Source: Nitrospira sp. CG24C (lineage in GTDB: Bacteria > Nitrospirota > Nitrospiria > Nitrospirales > Nitrospiraceae). Taken from it: a stretch of 54,496 bases of DNA. Made by a program: the position numbers and the translations under genes. The stretch is taken from assembly GCA_002869885.2 (NCBI GenBank), contig NEWR02000017.1:1-54496 (forward strand), in the 5' to 3' direction. Below, one piece after another: positions 6,845 to 45,600 of this stretch (positions are counted from its first letter, which is position 1; each line of letters starts with the position of its first letter). Below the pieces are notes generated by a model. The model did not search any database. It worked only from the letters and a program-made list of their open reading frames with translations, and was not told the DNA's origin.

Positions 6845-7929
6845 TTGTAGCAGGCTCCAAATCGATTCTTGAGCACATCTTGTAACGGAAAGGATTCCTG
6901 GGTCACGAATCCTTTGTACTGTGTAGGAGCCGCCAGCACGAGGTCGGCTACGGCGCAGAGGCTCGATGCGGTGGTCACTTGAATAGCGGACCACAGCTTC
7001 CCTTTAATGCATTGGGGATAGATCTTCTTCACGTAGTTCTCCTCGAATAGAGCGCCTTCTCTCATCCCCATGACGGAAGCATAGATCAGCACGACATCCT
7101 GCAATGTCTGGGGAACCGCCCGTTCGAGGATTCGTTTGAGCGTTTCACGGTCCTCGTTCAGCTTCAGATCTTTCATCAAGAGATGAATTTTCTCGCAATG
7201 GCCAGGATACCGCAGCGTCTTGTAGTTCATAGTCCGGACTTTCCCTGCATAGGTATCGGCTAACGTTCCCAATCCTCCGGAGGTGTTAAATGCTTCGTAC
7301 AAGAGTCCATCCACCTCAATCGTCTCATACCCTTCGAGAGGCAAGAGAGGCACCTTCTCCCCCTCTTCAATTCCGTAGCAGATATTGCCGTACTCGTTGA
7401 TGAGCCCATCGGTGGACCAGGTCAGTGAATACTTGAGCGCGTTACTAGGATGTACCGGCAAGGCGCCGACCCGCATTTTGACCGTATCCACCGTATCAAA
7501 GTGGGTGATCAAGTCGTGCGCTGCAATGCTGATGAACCCGGGGGCCAGACCGCATTGCGGCACAAAGGCTTGCGATGAGTCAGCGCTCAGGACTTTGACC
7601 TGAGCGGTGACTTCGACATCCTCCGTCAGGTCAAAATAGTGAAGCCGGTGTTCACGGGCCAATCCGGCGACAACTGGGTTACAGAAATAGGGCAGGCTCG
7701 ACAGAACCGCATCGAATCGATGTGCCGTCAGATATGCGCTGACCGCGTCGGGGTGTCGGACGTCGAGGTGCAGGGGTGTCACGCGCGCGAGACCGAGGTC
7801 CTCGACAAACCGCTTGGGAGCATCGAGGCTGATGTCACCGAGAGAGACCTCATAGTCCCCGCTTTCTGACAAAAGGCAGGCCACCAGGGATCCAATCTTT
7901 CCAGCACCTAGGACAAGCACGCGATGCAT
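6841..7929 (-). CDS. saccharopine dehydrogenase / lysine dehydrogenase family protein
   Basis: A 362-residue oxidoreductase. The N-terminal Rossmann motif reads [14 protein letters not shown] (about residues 4-17). CGLAPGF and [26 protein letters not shown] and [10 protein letters not shown] are typical of bacterial saccharopine-dehydrogenase-like and lysine 6-dehydrogenase proteins. The product would be aminoadipate semialdehyde, the substrate of the overlapping ALDH gene. The start is the ATG at 7929 with GAGG 6 nt upstream; a GTG at 7941 is possible. A TATACT -10-like word lies at 7950-7955 without a clear -35. Saccharopine cleavage and direct lysine deamination cannot be told apart from sequence alone. 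Confidence 0.82.
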
Positions 7930-8596: not shown

Positions 8597-9079
8597 CTAG
8601 CTGACCTTAGCTCCGGCTAACTTCAGCACCACAGCCCATTCGGATTCGGTCACAGGCTGGACGGAGAGGCGGGAGCCTTTTTGCAGCAAGACCATGCCCT
8701 TCAGCTTCGGTTCCTGCCTCAGTCGATCGAGCGACAGACTGGCATTAAAGGTCTGACGATACCGGATGTCCACCATGTCCCACCGTGGAGCAGAGGGAAC
8801 ACTGGCTGCGTCGTAGTGGTGGCTGGTCTTGTCGAACTGCGTCTGGTCCGGATAGGCAATCCTCGCAACTTCCGCAATCCCCACCACAGCCGGCGGTTCG
8901 GCATTACTATGGTAAAAAAATACTTGGTCTCCGACGGCCATTTCACGCATGAAGTTGCGTGCCTGATAGTTCCGCACCCCATCCCAACAGGTCGTCTGCT
9001 TGGGAGATTGCGCGAGATCGTCGATCGAAAATACACGTGGCTCCGATTTCATCAGCCAATAACGGCGCCCTTGTGCCAT
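8597..9079 (-). CDS. EVE-domain protein
   Basis: A 160-residue single-domain EVE protein (PUA-like superfamily, related to thymocyte nuclear protein 1). The hallmarks are RRYWLMKSEP at the N-terminus, WDGVRNYQARNFMREM, VGDQVFFYHSN, and P.WDMVDIRY in the second half. EVE domains bind modified nucleobases in nucleic acid and often accompany restriction or RNA-modification systems; none is adjacent here. The start is the ATG at 9079 with GAGAGGTGA upstream. The longer frame to 9205 would overlap the divergent DUF218 gene. Confidence 0.9.
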   Translation of the reverse strand: MAQGRRYWLMKSEPRVFSIDDLAQSPKQTTCWDGVRNYQARNFMREMAVGDQVFFYHSNAEPPAVVGIAEVARIAYPDQTQFDKTSHHYDAASVPSAPRWDMVDIRYRQTFNASLSLDRLRQEPKLKGMVLLQKGSRLSVQPVTESEWAVVLKLAGAKVS

Positions 9080-9161
9080 CACGTCACCTCTCTCTGCTTG
9101 GTCATTCAACTCACTCCGTGTATGCTGTCGGCGATGCCCTCTGTTCGATTGAGGTCTGCCG

Positions 9162-9974
9162 ATGGAATTGACTCCATTCTTCTTCGGTCTGTATAAGTTC
9201 GTCAAGTACGGCCTCTACCCTCTGACGTGGGTGGTATTACTCCTCGTCGCGGCGACGATTTTGGCCCTCTTCCCTTTCTCGCCAACACGCCTGAGGTGGG
9301 TGCGCCAGCTCGTCGCATCCTCCCTCCTCCTCCTCGTGACGTGCTCCAGTCCATGGATCGCCTACCCGTTGATCGGCTCACTCGAATCGTGGTACCACCC
9401 GCCACAGCTCACGCCCTCCGATCACTTCGATGCAATCGTGGTCTTGGGGGGAGGCATCGATGAGAAGGGCTCGCTTCGACCGACCGCCGAGCCGAATTCC
9501 TATTCCAAAAATCGAACCACCTGCGGCGTAAACCTCTACCAGCAAGGCTATGCCCCCACGTTGGTGCTGACAGGGGGAGACGCCAGAGTTTTCGGCACGG
9601 GGCCGCAGGTAGCGACCGAAATGAGACGATGGGCGGTTCGCCTCGGCGTTCCCGAGTCCGCCACTAAAATCGATACAGAAGCGAGAAACACCTACGAGAA
9701 CGCGACAGGGACCAAACGGCTGATCGGGCCCGCATCAATTCTACTCGTCAGTTCCGCCAGCCATCTGCCACGCGCGGTCCCAGTGTTCACCAAGCAAGGC
9801 TTCCGTGTCACGCCGGCCCCCTGCGACTATGTCGCACAGAACCTACCGCGAGAGAGCTGGGACAACATCGACCCGCTTGATTTCTTGCCAGACGATACTG
9901 CATTACAATACACCACAGAAGCGGTCACGGAAGTGGCCGGCATTATTGTCTATTGGCTGGCAGGGAAGCTTTAG
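9162..9974 (+). CDS. DUF218 / ElyC-SanA-YdcF family envelope protein
   Basis: A 270-residue protein with two N-terminal membrane segments (about residues 20-38 and 48-66) and a DUF218 domain. The domain has IVVLGGGIDEKGSLRPTAE, LVLTGGDARVFGTG, DTEARNTYENA and LLVSSASHLPRA. The two-TM-plus-domain layout matches ElyC (YcbC), a factor in envelope and peptidoglycan precursor homeostasis; the biochemical activity of the family is unresolved. GAGGT precedes the ATG by about 6 nt. Divergent from the EVE gene, with 82 bp between them for promoters. Confidence 0.82.
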   Translation: MELTPFFFGLYKFVKYGLYPLTWVVLLLVAATILALFPFSPTRLRWVRQLVASSLLLLVTCSSPWIAYPLIGSLESWYHPPQLTPSDHFDAIVVLGGGIDEKGSLRPTAEPNSYSKNRTTCGVNLYQQGYAPTLVLTGGDARVFGTGPQVATEMRRWAVRLGVPESATKIDTEARNTYENATGTKRLIGPASILLVSSASHLPRAVPVFTKQGFRVTPAPCDYVAQNLPRESWDNIDPLDFLPDDTALQYTTEAVTEVAGIIVYWLAGKL

Positions 9975-10517: not shown

Positions 10518-10640
10518 CTGGTTGATCTGGTTTGTTTGGTTGATTTGGTTCATCTGGTTAGTTTCGTTCAACCAAAAAACCAGACAAACCAAACAGACCA
10601 AATGAACAAGACAAGCTGGCGGACTTTTTCAACAGCCTGC
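10518..10640 (+). repeat. composite repeat E: short-word hairpin plus 26-bp element end
   Basis: From 10518 to 10606 lies a long imperfect hairpin whose arms are runs of TGGTT/TGGTTTG words and their complements. Its centre (GGTTCATCTGGTTAGTTTCG) reappears inverted in the composite near 45480-45600. At 10615-10640 follows GCTGGCGGACTTTTTCAACA..., the reverse complement of the left end of the 124-bp element. No gene is seen in the gap 10463-10730. Confidence 0.8.
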
Positions 10641-10730: not shown

Positions 10731-11513
10731 ATGGTCGAACGGTTTGAGGTTGCGCTGAATACCCCGGTCGGACGGCTGACCACAGCCATCGATGTGCCGA
10801 CAGGACTCATCCCCATCACGGCCATTGTCCCGGTTGCACGTCGCCTGGGGGAGGAAGCCGCACAACTGGAAATCCAGCACGCCACCGAAGCAGGCCAGGC
10901 TATTTCCTGCCGGATAGGCTGCGCCGCCTGTTGCCGCATGCTAGTTCCACTCTCTGCTCCGGAAGCGTTCGCGCTACGAGACTATGTGGAACAGCTGCCG
11001 ACGGATCGACGCGACCTTCTATTGAACCGCCTCGGTGACACGAAGGATCGCATAAAGCGAGCTGGCCTGTGGGATCGGCTAAACGACGTGTCTGAGGCAT
11101 CGAAACCGATAGCAGATGAAGAACTCGATCCGATCAATCGCTCTTACTACGCGTTGAGAATGCCTTGTCCCTACTTAGAGAATGAACTCTGTTCAATTTA
11201 CGAAGCGCGACCAGCGGCCTGTCGAGAACTCCTCGTCACCTCGCCGGCGGAACTCTGCCAGGACCTGGCGCAGAATCCGGTCACTCCCCTGCCGGTCTCG
11301 ATGCGAATCAGTTCCATATTGGGGCTGGCCTGGGGAACCCTGACCGACTCTCCCCCTCGACTCATCCCCCTCCCGATGGCCCTAGAATGGGCCGAACGGC
11401 ATGAAGAGGAATCCAGACGGACCTGGCCAGGCTCAGCGCTTTTAGACCAGGTGCTTGACCACATGTGGCGGTTTCTAAGCCAGGCATTTCAAACCCGCAG
11501 TTCTGAGTTATAA
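10731..11513 (+). CDS. YkgJ-type cysteine-cluster protein
   Basis: A 260-residue protein with the YkgJ (CxxCxxCC) cluster: CRIGCAACCRM near residues 60-70, then MPCPYLENELCSIYEARPAACREL near 144-167. In this family the cysteines bind zinc or an iron-sulfur cluster; the role is not established. The N-terminal 50 residues are unlike the bare domain. The C-terminus (QTRSSEL and stop) is encoded by the left arm of a short-word hairpin, suggesting repeat insertion changed the gene end. No clear SD before the ATG at 10731. Confidence 0.8.
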   Translation: MVERFEVALNTPVGRLTTAIDVPTGLIPITAIVPVARRLGEEAAQLEIQHATEAGQAISCRIGCAACCRMLVPLSAPEAFALRDYVEQLPTDRRDLLLNRLGDTKDRIKRAGLWDRLNDVSEASKPIADEELDPINRSYYALRMPCPYLENELCSIYEARPAACRELLVTSPAELCQDLAQNPVTPLPVSMRISSILGLAWGTLTDSPPRLIPLPMALEWAERHEEESRRTWPGSALLDQVLDHMWRFLSQAFQTRSSEL

Positions 11514-11575
11514 GTTCTGAGTGCTGAGTGGGAACTTTCCGGGAACTCAGAACTCAAAACTCAGGACTCAGAACT
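11499..11575. repeat. short-word hairpin (AGTTCTGAGT family)
   Basis: Tandem AGTTCTGAGT-like words on the left, then GGAACTTTCCGGGAACTC and complementary ACTCAGAACT words on the right, give a long stem-loop. The left arm supplies the last codons and stop of the YkgJ gene; thrH starts 22 nt after the right arm. Confidence 0.75.
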
Positions 11576-14451: not shown

Positions 14452-15579
14452 TCAGCACCCCTTGAATTTCCGAGCCTGACACTGTCCCGCGAGTAGCTGG
14501 GCTTCTGCAATCTGTGCAGGTGTTAGCTGTTTTGCAACAGCGTCTCTACGTTGTACCGACTCCATACTCGTTCCGCCCTGTCGTAGATATTGCTCGACTG
14601 CGAGCTTGAACCACATATAGGCACGTACATTGTCCTGCGGCACGCCGCGTCCATCGCGGTACATCTCGCCGAGTGAATCTTGCCCGTTTGCGTCTCCCTG
14701 CTCGGCAGCTTTGCGTATCCACTCCACTCCTTTTATTTCGTCCTTCGGAACACCCTTGCCATCGACGTAAAGATAGCCAAGGTCGTTCTGCCCCCCCGCG
14801 TCCCCCTGAGCAGCCGATTTCTCAAACCACTCCCGCGCCTTGGTGTGGTCCTGCGGCACGCCGTGCCCGTTGTCATACAACATCCCAAGGTTGTCCTGTG
14901 CCACCGCGTCCCCTTGGACAGCGGCTTTCTCGTACCACTGCCGTGCTTTCGCGTAATCCTGCGGCACGCCCTGTCCGGTTTCATACAGAAAACCGAGGGA
15001 GACCTGCGCGTTTTTGTTCCCCTGGACAGCCGCTTTCTCGAACCACTGCCGTGCCTTCGTGTAGTCTTGCGGCATGACCTGTCCGACTCGATATAGCACT
15101 CCGAGGTCGTACTGCGCCTTTGCGTATCCTTGAACAGCGGCTTTCTCACACCATTCCCGCGCCTTGGTGTGGTCCTGCGGCACGCCGTGCCCATAGTAAT
15201 AGAACGATCCGAGCGAGTGCTGCGCCATCGCAAGCCCCTGGGCAGCCGCTTTCTCGAACCATCCCCGCGCCTTTATGTAATCCTGTGGCACGCCCAGTCC
15301 ATCGCGATACAGGACCCCGAGGGCTCCCTGCGCCCCACTGTTCCCGTGAGCGGCGGCTTTCTCCCACCAGCCCCGTGCAGCCGCCCAGTTCTTGTTATTA
15401 GCCTCTATCCAGCCGAGGGTGTTCTGCGCCTTCACGTCGCCTTGTGCTGCCTGTGTGTATAACCTTGCCAACTCTCTTGCCGTGTCTTCATCTGAAATGT
15501 CGATCGTTGGGGAAGCGAATGTATGCCCAGAGGGGAGAACGAGCGCAACGAGGAGCGTTGTGACAAAGAGTGCGCGCAT
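14452..15579 (-). CDS. exported Sel1-repeat (TPR-like) protein
   Basis: A 375-residue protein with a signal peptide (MRALFVTTLLVALVLPSGHTFA). About eight Sel1-like repeats of 36 residues follow (LG.LY..G.GVPQD..KAR.WFEKAA.QG). The repeats are very alike, so the gene is internally repetitive. The tail (about 330-375) ends with a Cys pair (LLAGQCQARKFKGC). Sel1 proteins form solenoids that mediate protein-protein contacts; the envelope location is inferred from the signal peptide and the partner is unknown. It stands alone between repeat-bearing gaps. Confidence 0.88.
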   Translation of the reverse strand: MRALFVTTLLVALVLPSGHTFASPTIDISDEDTARELARLYTQAAQGDVKAQNTLGWIEANNKNWAAARGWWEKAAAHGNSGAQGALGVLYRDGLGVPQDYIKARGWFEKAAAQGLAMAQHSLGSFYYYGHGVPQDHTKAREWCEKAAVQGYAKAQYDLGVLYRVGQVMPQDYTKARQWFEKAAVQGNKNAQVSLGFLYETGQGVPQDYAKARQWYEKAAVQGDAVAQDNLGMLYDNGHGVPQDHTKAREWFEKSAAQGDAGGQNDLGYLYVDGKGVPKDEIKGVEWIRKAAEQGDANGQDSLGEMYRDGRGVPQDNVRAYMWFKLAVEQYLRQGGTSMESVQRRDAVAKQLTPAQIAEAQLLAGQCQARKFKGC

Positions 15580-18231: not shown

Positions 18232-18334
18232 GGTTCGTCATACGTAAAACGTCACGCGTCATGCGAAAAGCAAAAAAGGAAGCGGCTGATTCCTCTTGGC
18301 GCTTCACGCTTCACGCCTCACGCGTCACGTCCCC

Positions 18335-18813: not shown

Positions 18814-20400
18814 TCAGCGAGGCCGGACGGAGGCATGAAAGTAATCCACAGGGCTCGGTGGTGCAGTCAAGGCAATCATAAACGACTGCGGATCGTAGCC
18901 GATGTCCTCGAGATCCTTCGAGGCCAAGGTCAGCTCTTCCTCTGTGAGATAGGCAACGGTGTCCGGAATGCCTGTCGGCGTGAGCGCGCGCACAAGGGCC
19001 TGAAGCGCTTCACGCTCTTCCGGCGGCACCTCCAACGGAATGGGGAAATCCAGAGGGCGTGCGTAGGGGCTCCGATAGGTCTCGTTCAATGAATGGAGAG
19101 TCTTGAGCATCAGACGGTCCTGTTCCCATGGCGCCATTTTTGTACCGGCGGAAGGATGGGTGGCAATGAGATCCATGAGGGTCAAGACGTTGGTCCCCAA
19201 GCTGCGCCCTACGAACTCACGCTGGCTTTCTATGGTCATCGTGCCGGCCTCCAACTGCCTGGCGACCGCTTCGGCCAACGCAAAGTTGACCATAAAACTC
19301 TGTTGCCCGCCAAATTGGCCATAACAAGGCTTTTCCGGATCGTTCAGCACCTCCATGTCCGCTGTACCTGCATCGAAACTACTGAAACCAATCGCATCGG
19401 GAGCCAACAAACGCTTGGCTTCCTTGATCGTGGCATAGGCCCCCAGATTGACGGGAACCAGCACTCGCTCATCGATACGTTTGAGAAAATCCGCGATCGT
19501 CTTCCGGTAGGGAACCTCTTTCCATTCGACCGCCCGATATTCACGCTCCCACACCAGGTCGTCGAGAAACGGAGGGAAGCCTCTGAGTGCCTCCATGTCC
19601 ATGGTTTCGAACGATCGGAGAAAGGCCTGCCAATCTGAAATTTTCGCATGTGCGGCCTCGCTCAAGTTCGGCCGCATGAACTCCTCTTCAATGTCTCCCC
19701 CCTGGCGCGACATCAATTTCGTTGAGAGATCGTTCCACAGTTCGTTACAGATGATGCGATCGACGCTGCCATCCGCAACCGCATCGAGCCGATCAACAGT
19801 CCCTCGATGTGTCTCGACCCGGTTGCGGTGGGACGCGAGTTCTGGATGAGTCATGGCTGCGTCGAGCACGGCTTGTTCCCAATCGACCAGTACATATCGA
19901 ATGCGGGGATACACCACTCCATCTTTATCGAGAACCTTGAGATGGCTCAAGAAGCAAGCGGCAAGATTGCCGTTGCCAGGCCCGAGTTCTAAGATCGTAA
20001 GGGGCGACGCAGGGTGTAGGGGGGTAGCCGGGGTATCGGTGGAACCGGATTCAGCACTGCCCCGCTGTCCCGTTACCCCTTCACCCCGTGACTTTTCGCG
20101 TTTCACGACTTTTTCGAAATAGTCCGCCGCGAGAGCATGGGCAAGCCGATAGTCGGCTGAAGCAAATGTTTGGTAGAAACTGCGGACCTGATCGCCCCGG
20201 AAACGGTAGAAAAGCCTATTGATGTGGACTTGCCACTGATCGACCGGCTTGTAGTCGCCGATGAGCTGGGGTAAAGCGTCTGCGTCCTGCAACATCACAA
20301 TCCTGGTGCGGTCTGCCCTTCTCGTTTCAGCTTCAAAGAAGGGGAACTTTAGCAGATGACGGGAAACAGCCGCAACGGGCTTTCCTGCAGCTGTCGGCAT
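18814..20400 (-). CDS. MidA-like SAM-dependent methyltransferase with in-frame insert
   Basis: A 528-residue class I methyltransferase of the MidA/DUF185-like type. SAM motif I is TILELGPGNGNLA near residues 135-147, and ICNELWND near 220 corresponds to the NELxD motif of MidA proteins, which methylate a complex I subunit. The substrate here is unknown. Residues about 101-133, just before motif I, form a low-complexity stretch (GEGVTGQRGSAES...TPATPLHPASP) encoded by a palindromic repeat at 20002-20100. The stretch looks inserted. It begins at an ATG with AAGG about 4 nt upstream. Confidence 0.75.
   Translation of the reverse strand: MPTAAGKPVAAVSRHLLKFPFFEAETRRADRTRIVMLQDADALPQLIGDYKPVDQWQVHINRLFYRFRGDQVRSFYQTFASADYRLAHALAADYFEKVVKREKSRGEGVTGQRGSAESGSTDTPATPLHPASPLTILELGPGNGNLAACFLSHLKVLDKDGVVYPRIRYVLVDWEQAVLDAAMTHPELASHRNRVETHRGTVDRLDAVADGSVDRIICNELWNDLSTKLMSRQGGDIEEEFMRPNLSEAAHAKISDWQAFLRSFETMDMEALRGFPPFLDDLVWEREYRAVEWKEVPYRKTIADFLKRIDERVLVPVNLGAYATIKEAKRLLAPDAIGFSSFDAGTADMEVLNDPEKPCYGQFGGQQSFMVNFALAEAVARQLEAGTMTIESQREFVGRSLGTNVLTLMDLIATHPSAGTKMAPWEQDRLMLKTLHSLNETYRSPYARPLDFPIPLEVPPEEREALQALVRALTPTGIPDTVAYLTEEELTLASKDLEDIGYDPQSFMIALTAPPSPVDYFHASVRPR
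20002..20100 (-). repeat. palindromic repeat inside the MidA-like gene
   Basis: On the minus strand a left arm of GGGGTGAAGGGGTAACGGGA-type words faces a right arm of CCCCGGCTACCCCCCTACAC type. The same GGGTAxCGGGACAGCGGG vocabulary occurs at 23430-23507 inside the ArnT-like gene. The frame is kept through it. Confidence 0.65.
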
Positions 20401-20529
20401 TCAGCCTTCAGCTCCGGAGCTAGTGTGGACTGTTCAAACACCTCCTTTGCCCTGACTGACTGCTGAAAGCTGATCGCTATAGCTTCCCATATCCTTGACA
20501 GTTCCCATCGACCAGTGTACCAAGACGCT

Positions 20530-21108
20530 ATGGCGAACAGCATGAGACGAGCGGGGCGAGGGCTAATCGCGGCGGTCATTATCATGGCCCTGTCGCCGCT
20601 GGCGACCGTCCGGGCAGCGGAGCTGCCGATCACCAAGAATCCTCCCATCCCTGATTTTCAGAACCGCACCCAAGACGTCACCCCCTACAACTTCGATGCT
20701 CCACCGCAAGGCCTGTTCCGCACCATTACAACAGCAGAAGGATTTGACGAGCAACTGGGCCTTCACCGGACGCACGAAATTGTGCCGGTGAAACCGACGG
20801 ACCGGTTCCGCCCCAACACTCCTGCGGTCTTCATTGTCTTCCTCCTGCACCAGCATTATCAGGGATTCCAGGTGATCGGACGCTGTTTCCCTGAAGCGGT
20901 AGCCGGCCTCGATCCCACCGTTTCGATCGGACAAGACGCGATGTACATTGCGCTCGAAGACGACACTGGCTATCTCACGTTCTCTCCTCCACTCGGCGCC
21001 TGGAAGCCCGGCCGATATAAAGTGGAAATTCACGTGGGGGAACAGATCAACGAGATGAGCCTGATGGGCGCAATGCGCTTCACAGTCGTCGCGCCGTCAG
21101 GAGGGTAG
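20530..21108 (+). CDS. exported protein, unknown function
   Basis: About 192 residues. The signal peptide has Arg-rich MRRAGRG, a hydrophobic core and cleavage near VRAAE. The mature part begins with a Pro-rich linker. A likely beta-sandwich follows (AVFIVFLLHQHYQGFQVIGRCFPE..., LGAWKPGRYKVEIHVGEQ), which looks Ig-like. No family named. The start is ambiguous between ATG at 20530 and 20542. A TTGACA at 20495-20500 has only a poor -10 17 bp later (TACCAA). Followed by a 201-bp spacer and the GT2 gene on the same strand. Confidence 0.65.
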   Translation: MANSMRRAGRGLIAAVIIMALSPLATVRAAELPITKNPPIPDFQNRTQDVTPYNFDAPPQGLFRTITTAEGFDEQLGLHRTHEIVPVKPTDRFRPNTPAVFIVFLLHQHYQGFQVIGRCFPEAVAGLDPTVSIGQDAMYIALEDDTGYLTFSPPLGAWKPGRYKVEIHVGEQINEMSLMGAMRFTVVAPSGG

Positions 21109-21140
21109 CGAGAAGAGCGCGGCGTACAGGCCGGGCAACG

Positions 21141-21193
21141 GTTCGAGGTCCGAAGTTCGAGGTTTTCGGAATTCGAACCCAGAACTTCGAACG
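21141..21193. repeat. short-word hairpin (GTTCGAGG family), copy 1
   Basis: GGTTCGAGG and TTCGAAG words form a stem-loop. The first 30 nt (21141-21170) match 24345-24374 exactly, beyond the ArnT-like gene. A TCCCG-word tract follows at about 21197-21240. No gene in 21109-21309. Confidence 0.75.
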
Positions 21194-21309
21194 TCAGATC
21201 GCGCCCGTCCCGCCTGTCCCGCTACTCTCGCTATTCACGCCCGCCGCGCCGACCTCGCGGCGCGGTTTGACGCTCCCTCCATCATTCTGTAGAATGCCCG
21301 CGTGAGCCT

Positions 21310-22080
21310 GTGGACCCCCTTCTGCGTCAGGAATATCTGCCCCGCATGACCGTGCCATCCCATCCATGGGCCTCCGTTATCATCCCCATCAAGGATGAGC
21401 GAGATAATCTCGTTCCACTGATTGAGGGGCTCCTGGCCGTCATGGACTCACATGCGACCTCGCGGACTCGACCGTTCGAAATTATCTTTGTGGACGATGG
21501 CAGCAGTGATGGCAGCGGCGAAGAGCTGGACCGCCTGGCGGGGCAACATCCCCAGATTCGGGTATTCCACCTCGACCGAAACTACGGCAAGACCTGTGCG
21601 CTCGACGCGGGCTTTAATCAATCTTCCGGAGACATCATCATTCAAATCGACGGCGACCTTCAGCAGGACAGTGCGGACATCTTGAAGCTTCTGCCCCATA
21701 CTGACACCCACGATCTCGTGTGTGGATGGAGACTGGAACGGCAAGATGGCTTGGTGAAAAAAATATCGTCCCGAATCGCCAACCGCGTGCGGAACTTCTT
21801 TACCCACGACGGCGTCCACGATACAGGATGCCCGCTCAAGGTATTCCGGCGGCCCGTGCTGGAGCGGCTGCGCCTCTTCGAAGGCATGCACCGATTCTTT
21901 CCCGCGCTCGCGATCATGCACGGATTCACGGTCACGGAAGTGCGGGTCCGGCATTATCCGCGCATTCACGGCGTCTCCAAGTACGGCATGGGCAATCGAT
22001 TATTCAAATCGCTCTATGACCTGATTGCCGTGCGGTGGATGCAAACCAGGGTGTTGCGATATACATTCCGTGACAAGTAA
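21310..22080 (+). CDS. family 2 glycosyltransferase (polyprenyl-phosphate sugar transferase type)
   Basis: A 256-residue GT-A enzyme: ASVIIPIKDERDNL, IIFVDDGSSDGS, and the QIDGDLQQD DxD-type motif. This pattern is typical of dolichyl/undecaprenyl-phosphate sugar transferases (DPM1/ArnC-like), here without C-terminal membrane helices. It likely makes the lipid-linked sugar used by the ArnT-like transferase two genes downstream. The start could be the GTG at 21310 or the ATG at 21346; no clear SD for either. Confidence 0.82.
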   Translation: MDPLLRQEYLPRMTVPSHPWASVIIPIKDERDNLVPLIEGLLAVMDSHATSRTRPFEIIFVDDGSSDGSGEELDRLAGQHPQIRVFHLDRNYGKTCALDAGFNQSSGDIIIQIDGDLQQDSADILKLLPHTDTHDLVCGWRLERQDGLVKKISSRIANRVRNFFTHDGVHDTGCPLKVFRRPVLERLRLFEGMHRFFPALAIMHGFTVTEVRVRHYPRIHGVSKYGMGNRLFKSLYDLIAVRWMQTRVLRYTFRDK

Positions 22081-22196
22081 CGAGTCTGCAAGCGAGAAGG
22101 GCGAGAGATGCGCGACAAGCGAGACTCCATGGACTGTGAGAATCCGCTACCTTACGCTTCACGCACGTCTCGTCCGTCGCGCATGACGGTTCCATT

Positions 22197-22496
22197 ATGA
22201 GTCTCGAGAATATCTGGCTTGCCATCGGATTTCTTGGTCAAGGGCTGTTTTTCGGCCGCTGGGTGGTTCAATGGATTGCGTCTGAAAAGAAGGCGGAGAG
22301 CCAGGTCCCTGTCTCGTTTTGGTACATGAGCCTGATCGGCGGGCTCATCACGCTCGCCTACGCGATCTATCGGGAAGATCCGGTCTTCATCGCAGGACAG
22401 AGCATTGGATCGATCGTCTATGTTCGCAACCTGATGCTGATCTCGCGCGCGAGCCAGGCCAACCCGCCGGTCAGCCCCTCCTCTCCACAAACATAA
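22197..22496 (+). CDS. LAB_N (lipid-A-disaccharide synthase N-terminal-like) membrane protein
   Basis: A 99-residue membrane protein of the LAB_N family: GQGLFFGRWVVQWIASEKK, SQVPVSFWYMSLIGGLITLAYAIYREDPVF and the SIVYVRNLMLI end. About three membrane segments. Such small proteins commonly sit between a GT2 and a GT83 (ArnT) gene in lipid A or sugar-lipid modification loci, as here; they may help flip or present the lipid-linked sugar. The ATG at 22197 lacks a strong SD. Confidence 0.85.
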   Translation: MSLENIWLAIGFLGQGLFFGRWVVQWIASEKKAESQVPVSFWYMSLIGGLITLAYAIYREDPVFIAGQSIGSIVYVRNLMLISRASQANPPVSPSSPQT

Positions 22497-22523
22497 TTCT
22501 TTGAGATCTAATCAGCTCAACGT

Positions 22524-24326
22524 ATGCAGTCACCAAACAATCCCAACGATTCTATGACCACAACCGATCGTTCTCCCCATGCCCTGCTCCTTCTGGCCCT
22601 CCTCCTCCTGTCTGGGCTGTTGTTCTTCTTGGGACTCGGCGACATGGGGTTGACGGATCGTGACGAGGGACGGAATGCCGAGGCCGGTCGGGAAATGTTC
22701 GAGTCGGGGGATCGCCTGACGCCGACGTTCAACGGTGAGTTGCGCGTCGCGAAGCCAGTCTTGCTCTATTGGTTGATGGAACAATCCTATCGTCTGTTCG
22801 GGTCCAACGAGTTCGCCGCACGATTCCCCTCAGCCCTCTTCGGCGTGGGGTTGATCCTCATGCACTACCTGTTTCTTGTGCATCAGCGGGATCGAACCGT
22901 CGCGCTCTTCGGCGGATTGATGCTCTTGCTCAACTTGGAAATCCTTGGACTCGGGCGCATGGCACTGACCGACAGTGTCTTGATCTTTTTTACCACGGCA
23001 TCGCTGTACGGATTTTGGCTGGGCCTGCATGGAACAGGCGGTGCCCGTCGATGGGTCTGGATGTTCTATATCGGCATGGCGCTCGCCACGCTGACGAAGG
23101 GTCCGGTCGGATTCGCCGTGCCCCTCATTGTCGCGGCACTCTACCTCACCTGGACGCGCCGATGGCACGAGTATTGGCAGAAGGGTGTCCCCCTTGCAGG
23201 CACACTGCTGTTCATTTTGCTCGCCGCCCCCTGGTATGCGGCCATGTTCCTCGTGCATGGCGACGCCTATGCCACAGGCGCAAAAGCCCATACGATCGGT
23301 CGATTCCTCAGTCCTATGGAAGGACACCAGGGCACCATCTTCTTTTACCTCCCGGTCCTGCTCTTAGGTTTCTTTCCTTGGAGCGCACTTCTTCCTGTCC
23401 CGCTCTACCTCGCGTTCAAAGATTGGCGGAACCGCGGGATAGCGGGACAGCGGGATAGCGGGATATCCACTTACCCCGATACCCCTCATCCCGCTACCCC
23501 GGCTCGTGAGCTCGATCTCTTTGCCGCTCTATGGCTTGTAGGCACCCTTGTGTTCTTCACAGTCTCTGCAACCCGCCTGCCCCACTATATCGGTCCATTG
23601 TTTCCCGCCGCCGCCCTGTTGACAGCCTCGTACTGGTCCCGGTGTCTGAGTGATCCGACGACGAAAGGGATTCGGGGGTCTATACATCTCATGATGGGAG
23701 TGGGGTATCTCTTGGCGATCGGTTTTGCCTGCCTCCCCACCCTCTACACAACCTACGCCTCCAAGATGGTGCGGGAGTTCCCCTTGGCCGGGCAGGTAGA
23801 TCTCGGCAGCGGTCCCTATCTGATTGCAGCCCTGTTGTTACTCGGGATGACGTTGGTGGGATACCTTGGATTGAATGACGAACGGCGCGGAGGAGCCTTC
23901 TGGGCAGCTGGGGGAACCTTGGCCGGTCTGGTTCTGATTGTCATCGTCATCACATTTCCGCACATCAATCGATATGTGATCGCGCCACCGCAGGAACTCG
24001 CCTATGCCGCAGGACTGAACTTGGATCGCCAGGATCAATTCATTGCCTATGGCACCGTAAGACCATCGTCCGTATTTTACGCGAAACGCAAGACGCTCTT
24101 CGTCCCCTTTGGGGAGGAGGATAAGATACGGGCGGCCCTGAAAGAGTCGAAGAAAGTGATGATTCTCTTGCCGGAGAGCGCACAGTCGAAATTGCCGGCG
24201 GAAGCAAATGGACTGGTCCCCATCTTGAAACGCTACGGCTACGTGTTACTGGCCAACCAACCGATGGTGACGATTCCAGAGGGCACCACTCCGCCTCCAC
24301 CGCCGCCCACCATTCTCGGCCATTGA
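22524..24326 (+). CDS. ArnT-like (GT83) lipid-linked glycosyltransferase with in-frame insert
   Basis: A 600-residue polytopic membrane protein with about 12 helices. The first periplasmic loop carries DRDEGRNAEAGREM, the conserved DE motif of ArnT/PMT-type transferases that move a sugar from a polyprenyl phosphate onto lipid A or another acceptor. KPVLLYWLM and LTKGPVG are also typical. Residues about 303-328 (RGIAGQRDSGIS...TPHPATPA) are a polar stretch encoded by a palindromic repeat. It falls in a loop between helices, so the fold could tolerate it. Start at ATG 22524 or 22554. Confidence 0.85.
   Translation: MQSPNNPNDSMTTTDRSPHALLLLALLLLSGLLFFLGLGDMGLTDRDEGRNAEAGREMFESGDRLTPTFNGELRVAKPVLLYWLMEQSYRLFGSNEFAARFPSALFGVGLILMHYLFLVHQRDRTVALFGGLMLLLNLEILGLGRMALTDSVLIFFTTASLYGFWLGLHGTGGARRWVWMFYIGMALATLTKGPVGFAVPLIVAALYLTWTRRWHEYWQKGVPLAGTLLFILLAAPWYAAMFLVHGDAYATGAKAHTIGRFLSPMEGHQGTIFFYLPVLLLGFFPWSALLPVPLYLAFKDWRNRGIAGQRDSGISTYPDTPHPATPARELDLFAALWLVGTLVFFTVSATRLPHYIGPLFPAAALLTASYWSRCLSDPTTKGIRGSIHLMMGVGYLLAIGFACLPTLYTTYASKMVREFPLAGQVDLGSGPYLIAALLLLGMTLVGYLGLNDERRGGAFWAAGGTLAGLVLIVIVITFPHINRYVIAPPQELAYAAGLNLDRQDQFIAYGTVRPSSVFYAKRKTLFVPFGEEDKIRAALKESKKVMILLPESAQSKLPAEANGLVPILKRYGYVLLANQPMVTIPEGTTPPPPPPTILGH
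23430..23507 (+). repeat. palindromic repeat inside the ArnT-like gene
   Basis: Four GCGGGATAG/GCGGGACAG words are followed by TACCCCGATACCCC and CCCGCTACCCC, complementary to them. The vocabulary is that of the 20002-20100 repeat. About 78 nt, and the frame is preserved. Confidence 0.7.
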
Positions 24327-24343
24327 ACGGTTAGACGCGGGAG

Positions 24344-24408
24344 AGTTCGAGGTCCGAAGTTCGAGGTTTTCGGAACTTCGAACCATGAACTTCGAACTTC
24401 TGACCTCG
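24344..24408. repeat. short-word hairpin (GTTCGAGG family), copy 2
   Basis: GTTCGAGGTCCGAAGTTCGA on the left, CGAACTTCTGACCTCG-type words on the right. It lies between the convergent ArnT-like and PAP2 genes and shares an exact 30-nt core with 21141-21170. Confidence 0.75.
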
Positions 24409-24418
24409 CGCGTCGCGC

Positions 24419-25519
24419 CTACATTGGCACAATACCTTTCAAGGCATAGCTCGCCACCAGCATCAGCAGCGTGGCTGCGACAAACAGGCCCTCTGCCATG
24501 GCTGGCCATAACCCCCGATGACCCTCAGCCATGGGCTCGACCTGACCAAGGAGAGCGTCCAACCAATGGGCAGCACAGACAAGCAACACGATGACCGTGA
24601 CAAAGAGAGAGCCGGTCGTCATCCCTACCCCCAATCCCACGAGCCCGCGAGCCAGTGAGCCGGACAGCCAAGCCGGACACCATGACCATCGCACCCTCCA
24701 CAAGACATGGCCCACGAGTCCTGCCAGGGCGAGCAACAGACCGCCCCACACAAGCTGCTGGAATGGCCAAGTCTCCGACGGGAGAGATACGATCGTCCAG
24801 ACGAATGCGAGCGTCGCCACAAAAAATGGGGTCATCCGATAGACAGCCATCCCAATCGAGGTACGCCATTCACGCCAGGGATGGGCTGCAACCATCCCCA
24901 TGATACAGCCCAGCGCCGTTCCTCCGGCCACGTCGGTCAGATAGTGAGATCCGCGGAACACTCGGCTGGCGGCAATGGCCACCGCCGCTGCAAGAATAGG
25001 CCATCGCGCTCGCGGGAACCTTGCCGCCAGCACGGTTGCAACTGCAAATGCCGCCGCCGCATGCCCGGACGGGAACGAATCCCATCCGCTGCCGCTGACT
25101 GGGGAAAGCTCGAGGTTGCCTGCATGCATGAACTTAGGCCGTGGGCGACCGATGGCATGTTTCAAAATATTGGCGCTCAGTGCGGCAAGACCGTGCGCAA
25201 TGAGACTCTGCCAGCCCGCGTCTTTCCACTGCGGATGTTTCAATCCGTACCCAACCGCCAGCAGCGAGAGGCTCAGGATCACCAGAGACTCTCCCTTGCC
25301 CAGGCGGTCACCGATACTGCTGAGCTGAGCCAGCCAGGGATTGGTGAGGTGGTCCATGTGAAGATCGTTCAGGGAACGGACGAACCGGGTCAGCGGTACA
25401 TCCCACTCAAATAACCCCACGAACGCAAGGATGAGAGCGGCGAAGGAGAGAAGAACGGCCGCAATAGATGTGAATCGTGAAACGTGAATCGCGGGAGAAC
25501 CATGAGAATCGGTCTGCAC
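24419..25519 (-). CDS. PAP2-family membrane phosphatase
   Basis: A 366-residue polytopic protein with the complete PAP2 signature: KHAIGRPRP (motif 1), FPSGHAAA (motif 2) and SRVFRGSHYLTDV (motif 3), all in the N-terminal half. About four further helices follow motif 3, so it is longer than bare PAP2 enzymes. Substrates of this family include undecaprenyl pyrophosphate and lipid A phosphates. Facing the ArnT-like gene, a role in lipid A or carrier-lipid dephosphorylation is plausible but not proven. The GTG start at 25519 lies in a repeat-like ACGTTTCACG tract, so the extreme N-terminus is uncertain. Confidence 0.83.
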   Translation of the reverse strand: MQTDSHGSPAIHVSRFTSIAAVLLSFAALILAFVGLFEWDVPLTRFVRSLNDLHMDHLTNPWLAQLSSIGDRLGKGESLVILSLSLLAVGYGLKHPQWKDAGWQSLIAHGLAALSANILKHAIGRPRPKFMHAGNLELSPVSGSGWDSFPSGHAAAAFAVATVLAARFPRARWPILAAAVAIAASRVFRGSHYLTDVAGGTALGCIMGMVAAHPWREWRTSIGMAVYRMTPFFVATLAFVWTIVSLPSETWPFQQLVWGGLLLALAGLVGHVLWRVRWSWCPAWLSGSLARGLVGLGVGMTTGSLFVTVIVLLVCAAHWLDALLGQVEPMAEGHRGLWPAMAEGLFVAATLLMLVASYALKGIVPM

Positions 25520-31127: not shown

Positions 31128-31227
31128 AGGCTGAGGTCAAGGTTGAGCGAAGAATTGACTGCCTTCATCTCAACCTTAGCCTGAACCTTAACCTTCCATA
31201 ATGCTGGTGAACTTTTTCAGCATCCTG
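31128..31227 (+). repeat. composite repeat F: short-word hairpin plus 25-bp element end
   Basis: 31128-31195 is a stem-loop of AGGCTGAGGTCAAGGTTGAG against CTCAACCTTAGCCT words. 31203-31227 is GCTGGTGAACTTTTTCAGCA..., the end of the 124-bp element, and it stops exactly at the ftsY stop codon (31228). Confidence 0.75.
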
Positions 31228-32166
31228 TTATGCGGAGGGCGGCGCCGATGTCCCGATGAGCGCGTCCACGAACGCGTCGCTCTTGAAATCCTGCAGATCC
31301 TCAACTGACTCCCCGACTCCGATGAGCCTCACGGGCAACTTGAGTTCCTCGGCAATCGCGACGACGATCCCTCCGCGAGCAGTGCCGTCGAGCTTCGTCA
31401 GGACCAAACCGGTAACACCGACCGCTTGATGGAATTGACGGGCTTGGGACAGCGCGTTTTGCCCAACCGTGGCGTCCAGTACGAGGAGCACCTCGTGCGG
31501 TGCGCCAGGCAATTCCTGCCCAATGACGCGGGTAATTTTGCGGAGTTCGTCCATGAGATTCGATTTCGTGTGCAGCCGACCGGCTGTATCGATCAAGACA
31601 ACGTCCACCTGTCGCGCTTTCGCTGCGGCAATCCCATCGAACGCAACAGCGGCCGGGTCGGCTCCGTGGCGGTGACGAATCACATCGACGCCGACTCGGT
31701 CGGCCCAGACTTGCAACTGATCAATCGCCGCCGCGCGAAAGGTATCGGCTGCTACCAGCAACGGCGCCTTTCCCGCCTGCACCAGCCGTTGTGCGATCTT
31801 GGCAATCGTGGTGGTCTTGCCGACACCGTTTACGCCCACCGCCAGGATGACAAAGGGCTTGGGGCCTTTCGCAAGGAGAGACTCCAACGATAGCCCTTGC
31901 ACGGGCGTCAGCACATCGAGCAGGGTGTCCCGCAATACTCTATGAACCTGACCAGGTTGTGAGGCATCGGTCCCTTGAAGCTGTTTCTTGAGACGCTCCA
32001 ACACGCGATCTACGACGCTGGTACCGAGATCGGAGGCGATGAGGGCCGCTTCGAATTCTTCCAACAGGGCAGGATCCGCCGCACGGCCAAGCAGCCGATC
32101 CATGGACCCGCGAACAACATCGCGCGTTTTGGTAAGCCCGTCGCTCAGTCGCTGCAACCATCCCAT
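31228..32166 (-). CDS. ftsY: signal recognition particle receptor FtsY
   Basis: 312 residues: the N domain (about 1-95) and SRP GTPase G domain with P-loop AVGVNGVGKTTT (109-120), DTFRAAA, VLIDTAGR and TKLDGTARGG. The acidic A domain of E. coli FtsY is absent, as in many bacteria. It docks ribosome-SRP complexes at the membrane for co-translational insertion. The gene is bracketed by an isolated element end at its stop and a full 124-bp element (copy C) upstream. Confidence 0.95.
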   Translation of the reverse strand: MGWLQRLSDGLTKTRDVVRGSMDRLLGRAADPALLEEFEAALIASDLGTSVVDRVLERLKKQLQGTDASQPGQVHRVLRDTLLDVLTPVQGLSLESLLAKGPKPFVILAVGVNGVGKTTTIAKIAQRLVQAGKAPLLVAADTFRAAAIDQLQVWADRVGVDVIRHRHGADPAAVAFDGIAAAKARQVDVVLIDTAGRLHTKSNLMDELRKITRVIGQELPGAPHEVLLVLDATVGQNALSQARQFHQAVGVTGLVLTKLDGTARGGIVVAIAEELKLPVRLIGVGESVEDLQDFKSDAFVDALIGTSAPPSA

Positions 32167-45479: not shown

Positions 45480-45600
45480 TAGTCTATCTGGTCTATTCGG
45501 TCTTTCTCGTGTATTTGGATGAACGAAACTAACCAGATGAACCTGATAGACCGGATAGACCAGACGAACAAGATCGGCTGGCGGCATTTTTGAGCATCCG
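45480..45600 (+). repeat. composite repeat G: short-word hairpin plus 24-bp element end
   Basis: 45480-45573 is a long stem-loop of TCTGGTCTAT/TAGACCGGATAGACC words. Its centre (GAACGAAACTAACCAGATGA) is the reverse complement of the centre of composite E at 10518. 45577-45600 is GCTGGCGGCATTTTTGAGCA..., the end of the 124-bp element, one base before the stop codon of the PilX/GspK-like gene. Confidence 0.8.

Follow-up and report, generated by a model that had tools for sequence, protein, structure and literature searches.

In-frame segments of interchangeable words in Nitrospira genes and their likeness to S23-bearing intervening sequences

INTRODUCTION

Several described bacterial repeat systems resemble the subject of this study, which is a pair of in-frame segments of short repeated words in a MidA-like methyltransferase gene and an ArnT-like glycosyltransferase gene of Nitrospira sp. 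CG24C. Both genes lie in a 54,496-nucleotide stretch of DNA (contig NEWR02000017.1, positions 1 to 54,496; hereafter the window) of a 2.99-Mb genome, G000. A word hairpin, as the term is used here, consists of two mutually complementary arms of tandem 6- to 9-mers around a loop. A first-pass annotation of the window had proposed that one mobile palindrome was inserted in both genes.

Among the closest described systems are the intervening sequences (IVSs) of 23S rRNA. These are stem-loops with complementary borders, which in some bacteria enclose an S23 open reading frame (ORF), and small tetraloops of rRNA helices are replaced by the extended IVS stem-loop (PMC4990558). The comparisons with published systems made here refer to the cited portions of the respective papers. 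Nitrospira S23 genes, like those of IVSs, are found inside complementary arms or between them, and one word hairpin can be nested in another hairpin. Unlike IVSs, the elements studied here sit in the spacers of protein genes and, without an ORF, in frame in protein genes, rather than in the helix of an rRNA gene (the 23S genes themselves being outside the loci studied), and their arms are tandem words of many families. The Nitrospira word hairpins extend the IVS/S23 system outside rRNA.

Other systems share individual features. The P6b stem-loop of the Nostoc trnL intron is likewise a stem of 7-base words (Class I TDNGATT and Class II NNTGAGT heptamers) in which one word class has been independently replaced by the other at a fixed site (PMC4476775). 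However, it concerns one RNA site and two classes, whereas Nitrospira has coding and spacer sites, many classes, and a link to S23. Rickettsia palindromic elements (RPEs) are hairpin repeats of 105-146 bp with terminal inverted repeats that occur between genes and in frame in conserved genes, with 19 reading frames named (PMC2229807). Nitrospira similarly has in-frame hairpins in conserved genes (MidA-, ArnT-, and HerA-like) together with intergenic copies, but also word families, replacement of one family by another, and S23, none of which is mentioned for RPEs in the cited portion of that account. The TAACTGA heptamer repeats of Beggiatoaceae, Cyanobacteria, and Bacteroidetes form many short intergenic arrays of one directly repeated 7-base word, most of them immediately ahead of start codons in the principal genome studied; the abstract makes no mention of hairpin arms (PMC4679880), which the Nitrospira words do form. 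Finally, palindromic amphipathic repeat coding elements (PARCELs) are coding repeats with dyad symmetry that have been suggested to be mobile (PMC2996958). The Nitrospira inserts share this symmetry and coding position, but they are interchangeable words in enzyme linkers instead of a 25-residue protein motif in tandem arrays.

Among the matches listed in a search of the openly licensed PMC literature (subscription papers being outside its scope), there was no account of Nitrospira word hairpins or interchangeable coding hairpins, and no report of S23 genes with word arms outside rRNA. Differently worded hairpins at one and the same spot in related species, within enzymes and between genes, and the presence of these words around a small orphan gene suggest a little-studied mobile hairpin family in Nitrospira-type bacteria. 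Here we describe their word structure and in-frame position, the several word families found at a single site, the matched arms around S23 genes, and a deletion series at one spacer.

RESULTS AND DISCUSSION

Two in-frame word segments with further copies in the genome

The DNA and ORFs bear out the annotated GGG/CCC word segments, which lie in frame within both genes (Table 1). The ArnT segment reads GCGGGATAGCGGGACAGCGGGATAGCGGGATATCC...TTACCCCGATACCCC...TACCCC at positions 23434-23501 of the plus strand, with GCGGGATA words followed by TACCCC words. In inverted orientation it aligns with the MidA segment at 74% over 50 nt. The two encoded peptides, GVTGQRGS...DTPATPLHPASP and GIAGQRDS...YPDTPHPATP, have the common pattern G-x-x-GQR...TP...HPA[S/T]P, as had been described, because common words are read in the same frame. 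The methyltransferase domain match next to the MidA insert starts at what we take to be motif I, and a gap in ArnT 5ezm at the other insert suggests that the latter occupies a loop between helices. AlphaFold2 models of the MidA-like (7 sequences) and ArnT-like (13 sequences) proteins were unusable, with mean confidence scores (pLDDT) of 37.8 and 39.9, respectively, and Rfam gave no matches over the window at the gathering threshold. Treated as single-stranded RNA, the ArnT segment gives a better fold than shuffled sequences (z -3.3; 2 of 200 shuffles were equally good).

The additional genome copies that the first-pass annotation led one to expect are present. A search of G000 with the ArnT segment returned 29 rows at E<=10, including the query itself, and the best other row had an E value of 8.8e-6. 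The MidA copy ranks only 14th among these rows, as a modest match (E 0.03), and other copies are clearer. Nested copies that closely resemble each other are scattered over the genome. Eight dispersed copies (L002, L005, L006, L007, L008, L009, L012, and L025) have in common the core GGGGGTAGCGGGATACAGGGATAGTCGGGGTAG with few changes, and outer AGGCTGAAGGCT words are also seen by eye in most of the eight. These copies are the best sign of recent dispersal within G000.

One coding site accommodates many word families

Word families at the coding sites of relatives were labeled by eye from the printed DNA. For MidA, two loci were dropped (L089, where the site is absent, and L097, which begins behind it). 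Word segments are present in 17 of the 18 same-genus loci that cover the site, and they belong to four families: GGGGTA/TACCCC (6 loci), GGCGTCA/TCACGCC (5), CTCAGCA (3), and GAGGCAA/CTCGCCC (3). In other genera of the family (26 loci), 13 loci have words, 2 are doubtful, and 11 have none; the families TTCGAAG, CGTGAAG, AAGGTTGAGG, and GGCAATA first appear there. Across relatives, the MidA site holds at least eight word families, which speaks against the proposal of one mobile palindrome.

The ArnT-like protein search yielded 16 named loci, all from Nitrospira, Nitrospiraceae, and Nitrospirae metagenome-assembled genomes. Among 22 same-genus ArnT loci, seven have the GGGGTA type and one has GAGGCCA/CGCCTCT. 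Words are absent from the remaining 14 and, by eye, from the 10 order-level loci that cover the MidA site, in keeping with the annotated insert-like character of the segments. Orthologues with segments of unrelated codons, which count against insertion, were found in part, but many of these segments are word hairpins themselves. Two loci of the GGGGTA type, L056 and L041, have left arms that match in inverted orientation at 28 of 31 bases, and the protein length is unchanged.

The word structure of these segments is evident at the DNA level. Among the 33 MidA segments of at least 60 nt (out of 44), 24 are word-periodic compared to 7% of control windows, and the periods are mostly 7 and 8 bases, out of step with codons. 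Furthermore, complementarity of the left half to the right half is higher when both come from one copy than when they come from different copies (11.3 versus 7.6; 0 of 10,000 permutations).

A third gene emerged from the G000 copies. An 828-codon open frame on contig C22 has a related palindrome inside, and we call it a HerA-like ATPase gene, although its HerA/DUF87 matches are weak and below curated cut-offs. Every one of the 15 loci covering this site, G000 included (partial matches L337-L346 were excluded), has an in-frame word segment, with the families GGGGTA (6), GAGGCTA (4), CTCAGCA (2), CGTGAAA (2), and CGTCAGG (1). The HerA-like site bears out the prediction of the pattern in a gene beyond the two given.

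Most S23 genes tested lie in matched word arms

In several relatives, the spacer between the GT2 and LAB_N genes contains an ORF for S23 (PF05635, 23S rRNA intervening sequence protein) between arms. S23 is present in 22 of 26 genus genomes, in 28 of 57 genomes sampled from the order, and in 32 of 61 sampled from the phylum; G000 has five S23 genes. For the genus, 60 loci were fetched and 57 tested (L127 was left out, and L142 and L183 were skipped for short flanks). Their own arms score 20.4 versus 10.9 for mismatched pairs, and 45 of the 57 exceed the 95th percentile of such pairs. In a non-redundant set of 35 loci, built by crude position-by-position identity, 32 exceed the 95th percentile (0 of 10,000 permutations) and 16 the 99th. 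The same holds outside the genus (18 of 21 above the 95th percentile; partial matches L207, L209, L210, and L212 left out) and beyond the order (14 of 19, with L318 and L320 omitted and with L309 and L317 excluded because their flanks were short), each with 0 of 10,000 permutations. As a control, ordinary ORFs of G000 contig C9 reach a flank score of at least 16 in 7 of 232 cases.

The GT2-LAB_N spacer also provides a deletion series in which the arms are kept. S23-bearing forms of 421-426 bp (L115, L054, and L059; the S23 frame is split in the genome of L054) are followed by a form of 193 bp (L112) and by one of 130 bp (L057), which is almost a bare hairpin. On G000 contig C16, an S23-bearing GGGGTA/TACCCC hairpin (approximately 7060-7890) and an S23-less one (approximately 8908-9262) both use the word family of the MidA and ArnT inserts of the window. 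In the former, S23 lies inside the left arm with words on either side. The loops of the two hairpins, 1.4 kb apart, fall within a common stretch of 98 nt, 91 of which are identical. Sharing of 10-mers connects the coding inserts to these elements. MidA insert 10-mers recur in bare hairpins (9.0% versus 0.9% for control windows of the same genes) and in S23 flanks (15.5% versus 4.8%), and ArnT insert 10-mers recur in S23 flanks (19.8% versus 4.0%). The match of bAvd (PF22296), the family of the accessory protein Avd of diversity-generating retroelements (DGRs), to the S23 protein is 25.7 bits, under the cut-off of 40. In the GT2-LAB_N spacer of L101 (L101:763-1043), a broken S23 remnant is split by a hairpin-like segment ending in ...TTTTCCGCATCCTGCTA, with CTCAGCA words at its end.

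Word hairpins between genes

Word replacement is likewise seen between genes. Across relatives, the ArnT-PAP2 spacer holds TTCGAAG, CTGGTCTAT, CTGGTTTGT, or GCGGGACGAGG hairpins, or none, such that 7-mer and 9-mer families swap at one spacer. By eye, the TTCGAAG hairpin of this spacer is nested in remnants of a GCGGGAC-type hairpin in the window, L105, and L109. The L101 and L102 spacers have an identity of 76 in inverted and 71 in direct orientation, which are poorly separated because the spacer is a palindrome; the loop reads inverted.

A strict tandem scan at lags 7 and 8 was confounded by runs of N and missed degenerate words, and a hairpin census was used instead. The 252-kb contig C9 has 19 strong hairpins versus none in three shuffles. 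Arms are word-periodic in 15 of the 19, compared to 3.4% of background windows, most with lag 7 and others with 6 or 9. In this respect they are like STRR-like (short tandemly repeated repetitive) heptanucleotide repeats, which are tandem heptamers with many copies per genome. In samples of 40-252 kb, 35 word hairpins with a score of at least 15 were found in 11 genus genomes (three with none), and no word hairpin reached that score in 13 genomes of other genera. The census undercounts, because both window inserts fall under its main score limit. In samples from 15 genomes, only 3 of 48 word hairpins elsewhere lie in open frames (non-genic by eye, one perhaps a real gene start), and therefore additional in-frame cases look rare at the census limit.

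Word families in gene trees and within genomes

We mapped the word families on a tree of the MidA and ArnT proteins, built from 1023 columns after removal of the inserts and with 10 of its 24 inner branches unresolved. On it, the MidA word family changes 10 times among 17 genomes. Shuffled labels give a mean of 9.5 changes, with 85% of 200 shuffles at 10 or fewer. At MidA, shuffled labels thus fit the gene tree as well as the real word families do. For example, G009 (family C) and G022 (family A) form a sister pair with support of 99/93, in a clade (100/100) that also includes family D. G022 covers only 34% of the tree columns, and support for the pair on the MidA tree is 81/93; the position of G005 (family B) beside G019/G024 (family A) is also among the better supported. 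The HerA-like gene has 6 changes, below most shuffles (6 of 300 as low), and therefore some kinship signal is left at this site.

Unrelated genes of one genome tend to have the same family: MidA and HerA-like in 6 of 11 genomes (p 0.017), ArnT and HerA-like in 6 of 6 (0.0008), and ArnT and MidA in 3 of 4 (0.09). The total by permutation is 5e-5, or 0.00045 with one genome per clade; in both cases kinship is not fully removed.

A proposed relationship to S23/IVS-like elements

The in-frame palindromes are probably ORF-less members of a dispersed family of S23/IVS-like hairpin elements that are tolerated in protein linkers. At permissive sites, such as spacers and linkers, a resident hairpin would repeatedly be swapped for one of another word family, or be partly inverted. 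Within genes, survival would be limited to open, in-frame outcomes, and the coding sites would be those where the reading frame tolerates a hairpin. In its fuller form, the element would carry, like rRNA intervening sequences, the gene for a four-helix-bundle protein, S23 (23S rRNA IVP), between its arms or inside one of them, and could decay by deletion to a bare hairpin. Copies of the same genome would replace or convert each other, either by inserting or through conversion that involves hairpin DNA or RNA, and the elements appear to be mobile, spreading in either of these forms. Participation of the S23 protein in this spread is only a guess.

Several results weigh against this proposal. 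Arm complementarity is above the 95th percentile in only 11 of the 33 MidA segments. The MidA segment of the window genome does not fold better than shuffles (z -1.1; 28 of 200 as good), and therefore the palindrome annotated in both genes is firm for the ArnT segment and weak for the MidA segment by itself. ArnT insert 10-mers have no excess in bare hairpins (1.3% versus 1.0% for controls). No target-site duplications were seen by eye in the spacers inspected, where no program search was made. In the 11 genus genomes, hairpin density does not correlate with S23 count (rho 0.21, p 0.53), and genus is a confounder of the significant correlation over all 24 genomes (0.74). Possibly, S23 lands in hairpins as a passenger.

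An origin in situ, which we regard as unlikely, is the strongest competing explanation. Replication slippage would grow tandem words in hairpin-prone linkers and spacers, copying templated by the hairpin (quasi-palindrome repair) would match the arms, and families would change by concerted evolution with no movement, S23 being merely resident. On visual inspection, one or two bases often separate the words of different families, and such words mix within arrays; arm inversions are compatible with hairpin-mediated copying; and between families, insert centers resemble each other slightly more than permuted ones do (2 and 3 of 300), which is a weak signal only. However, this explanation does not account for the replacement of 7-mers by 9-mers and vice versa at one spacer, or for the family agreement among unrelated genes of one genome. 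The word vocabulary common to different sites and the nested, closely similar copies scattered over G000 also argue against it. Furthermore, five S23 genomes from outside the genus (G072, G049, G064, G066, and G075) have no bare word hairpin in 40-kb samples, and yet three of their four tested S23 loci (L195, L206, and L191; not L201) have arms above the 95th percentile.

A single palindromic element of the Rickettsia type with protein-coding ability is very unlikely. It would explain in-frame insertion in three unrelated conserved G000 genes together with dispersed intergenic copies, but there is no single consensus, and the family changes, with the many word families at the MidA site, contradict it. 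Copies of an RPE type share one family sequence. The Nitrospira hairpins are not RPE members because their copies lack a common sequence family, and the annotated comparison with Rickettsia is apt for the manner of working but not for family membership.

It is still harder to believe that these are ordinary low-complexity, fast-evolving linkers with no meaning at the DNA level. Both sites are linkers, and many orthologues have plain variable linkers there. Such a reading is contradicted by the mostly 7- and 8-base periodicity out of codon step, by arm complementarity relative to mismatched pairs (0 of 10,000), and by identical words in spacers. Least credible, on a comparison that covers the transposase gene but not the GTAG/CGTC tags of such repeats, is an origin as repetitive extragenic palindromic (REP) elements that a RAYT (Y1_Tnp) transposase moves: REPs are likewise small palindromic repeats, and Y1_Tnp occurs once in G000 and in 14 of 26 genus genomes, but 12 of the 26 (several being incomplete drafts) have no match, and eight such genomes, which as drafts may be incomplete, have word inserts (G001, G003, G004, G009, G011, G013, G017, and G018).

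Beyond the proposed membership of the in-frame palindromes in an S23/IVS-like family, we tentatively entertain a broader possibility, to which we give rather less than even chances. S23 (IVS) genes may represent a phylum-wide class of mobile hairpins with interchangeable word arms, whose S23-aided spread through genomes, as hairpin DNA or RNA, rewords fixed sites and writes and rewrites in-frame segments of housekeeping enzymes. Four separate puzzles meet in this subject: palindromes that code for protein, heptamer repeats, how rRNA intervening sequences arose, and what the orphan S23 protein does. If the proposal is true, non-coding hairpins repeatedly become protein segments at given sites, dozens of species offer natural replicates of this process, and the origin, movement, and coding conversion of such repeats would be directly testable.

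Other features of the window and related loci

The features of the window are collected in Table 1.

Table 1. Word-repeat features and host genes in the window
Feature	Position	Strand	Basis or context
MidA-like S-adenosylmethionine (SAM) methyltransferase gene, host of insert 1	18814..20400	-	ORF, Pfam Methyltransf_28, orthologues
Insert 1, in-frame GGGGTA/TACCCC-family word segment in MidA-like gene	20008..20094 (about)	-	Directly ahead of the methyltransferase domain match, which runs from residue 130
ArnT/PMT-like glycosyltransferase gene, host of insert 2	22524..24326	+	Pfam PMT; ArnT 5ezm E 4e-26
Insert 2, in-frame word hairpin GCGGGATA/TACCCC in ArnT-like gene	23430..23504	+	Falls where ArnT 5ezm has a gap
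TTCGAAG word hairpin nested between remnants of GCGGGAG/CGCGC hairpin	24340..24418		Convergent ArnT-PAP2 spacer
TTCGAAG hairpin nested in GCGAGAA/TCTCGC words	21141..21233		Spacer upstream of GT2 gene
GCGAGAA word hairpin	22092..22190		GT2-LAB_N spacer; S23-bearing elements in same spacer of relatives
9-mer CTGGTTTGT word hairpin	10518..10610		Hairpin census
GTTCTGA word hairpin	11499..11575		Hairpin census
9-mer CTGGTCTAT word hairpin	45487..45564		Hairpin census
One-armed CGCTTCA word array, intergenic	18295..18329		Tandem scan
GTGAAAC words, N-terminal end of PAP2 ORF	25470..25491	-	Wording of that end varies among relatives

The N-terminal end of the PAP2 ORF (window 25470-25519) reads through words that differ among relatives and may represent a fourth coding site, in this case where a gene starts. 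A candidate word array at 24636 in PAP2 was rejected as an ordinary conserved stretch. At window positions 31200-31230 and in the spacers of L105, L106, L113, and L051, there is a recurrent CTTTTTCAGCATCCTG-like end, with an inverted partner in some relatives, that looks like a second hairpin family. The LAB_N-ArnT spacer of L106 and L053 has a conserved insertion of approximately 190 bp (CTGCTACGAC..CTTCGGCC...) without visible word structure. A 156-amino-acid ORF, presumably MEKHLA-like, lies between two mutually inverted AAGGTT word hairpins at G000:C9:210018-210489 (L154:15523-15993; flank score 58), possibly as a hairpin element with a different cargo gene. Finally, a 108-bp tandem repeat of 4.6 copies occupies window positions 14797-15295 within an ORF at 14452-15579 on the minus strand.

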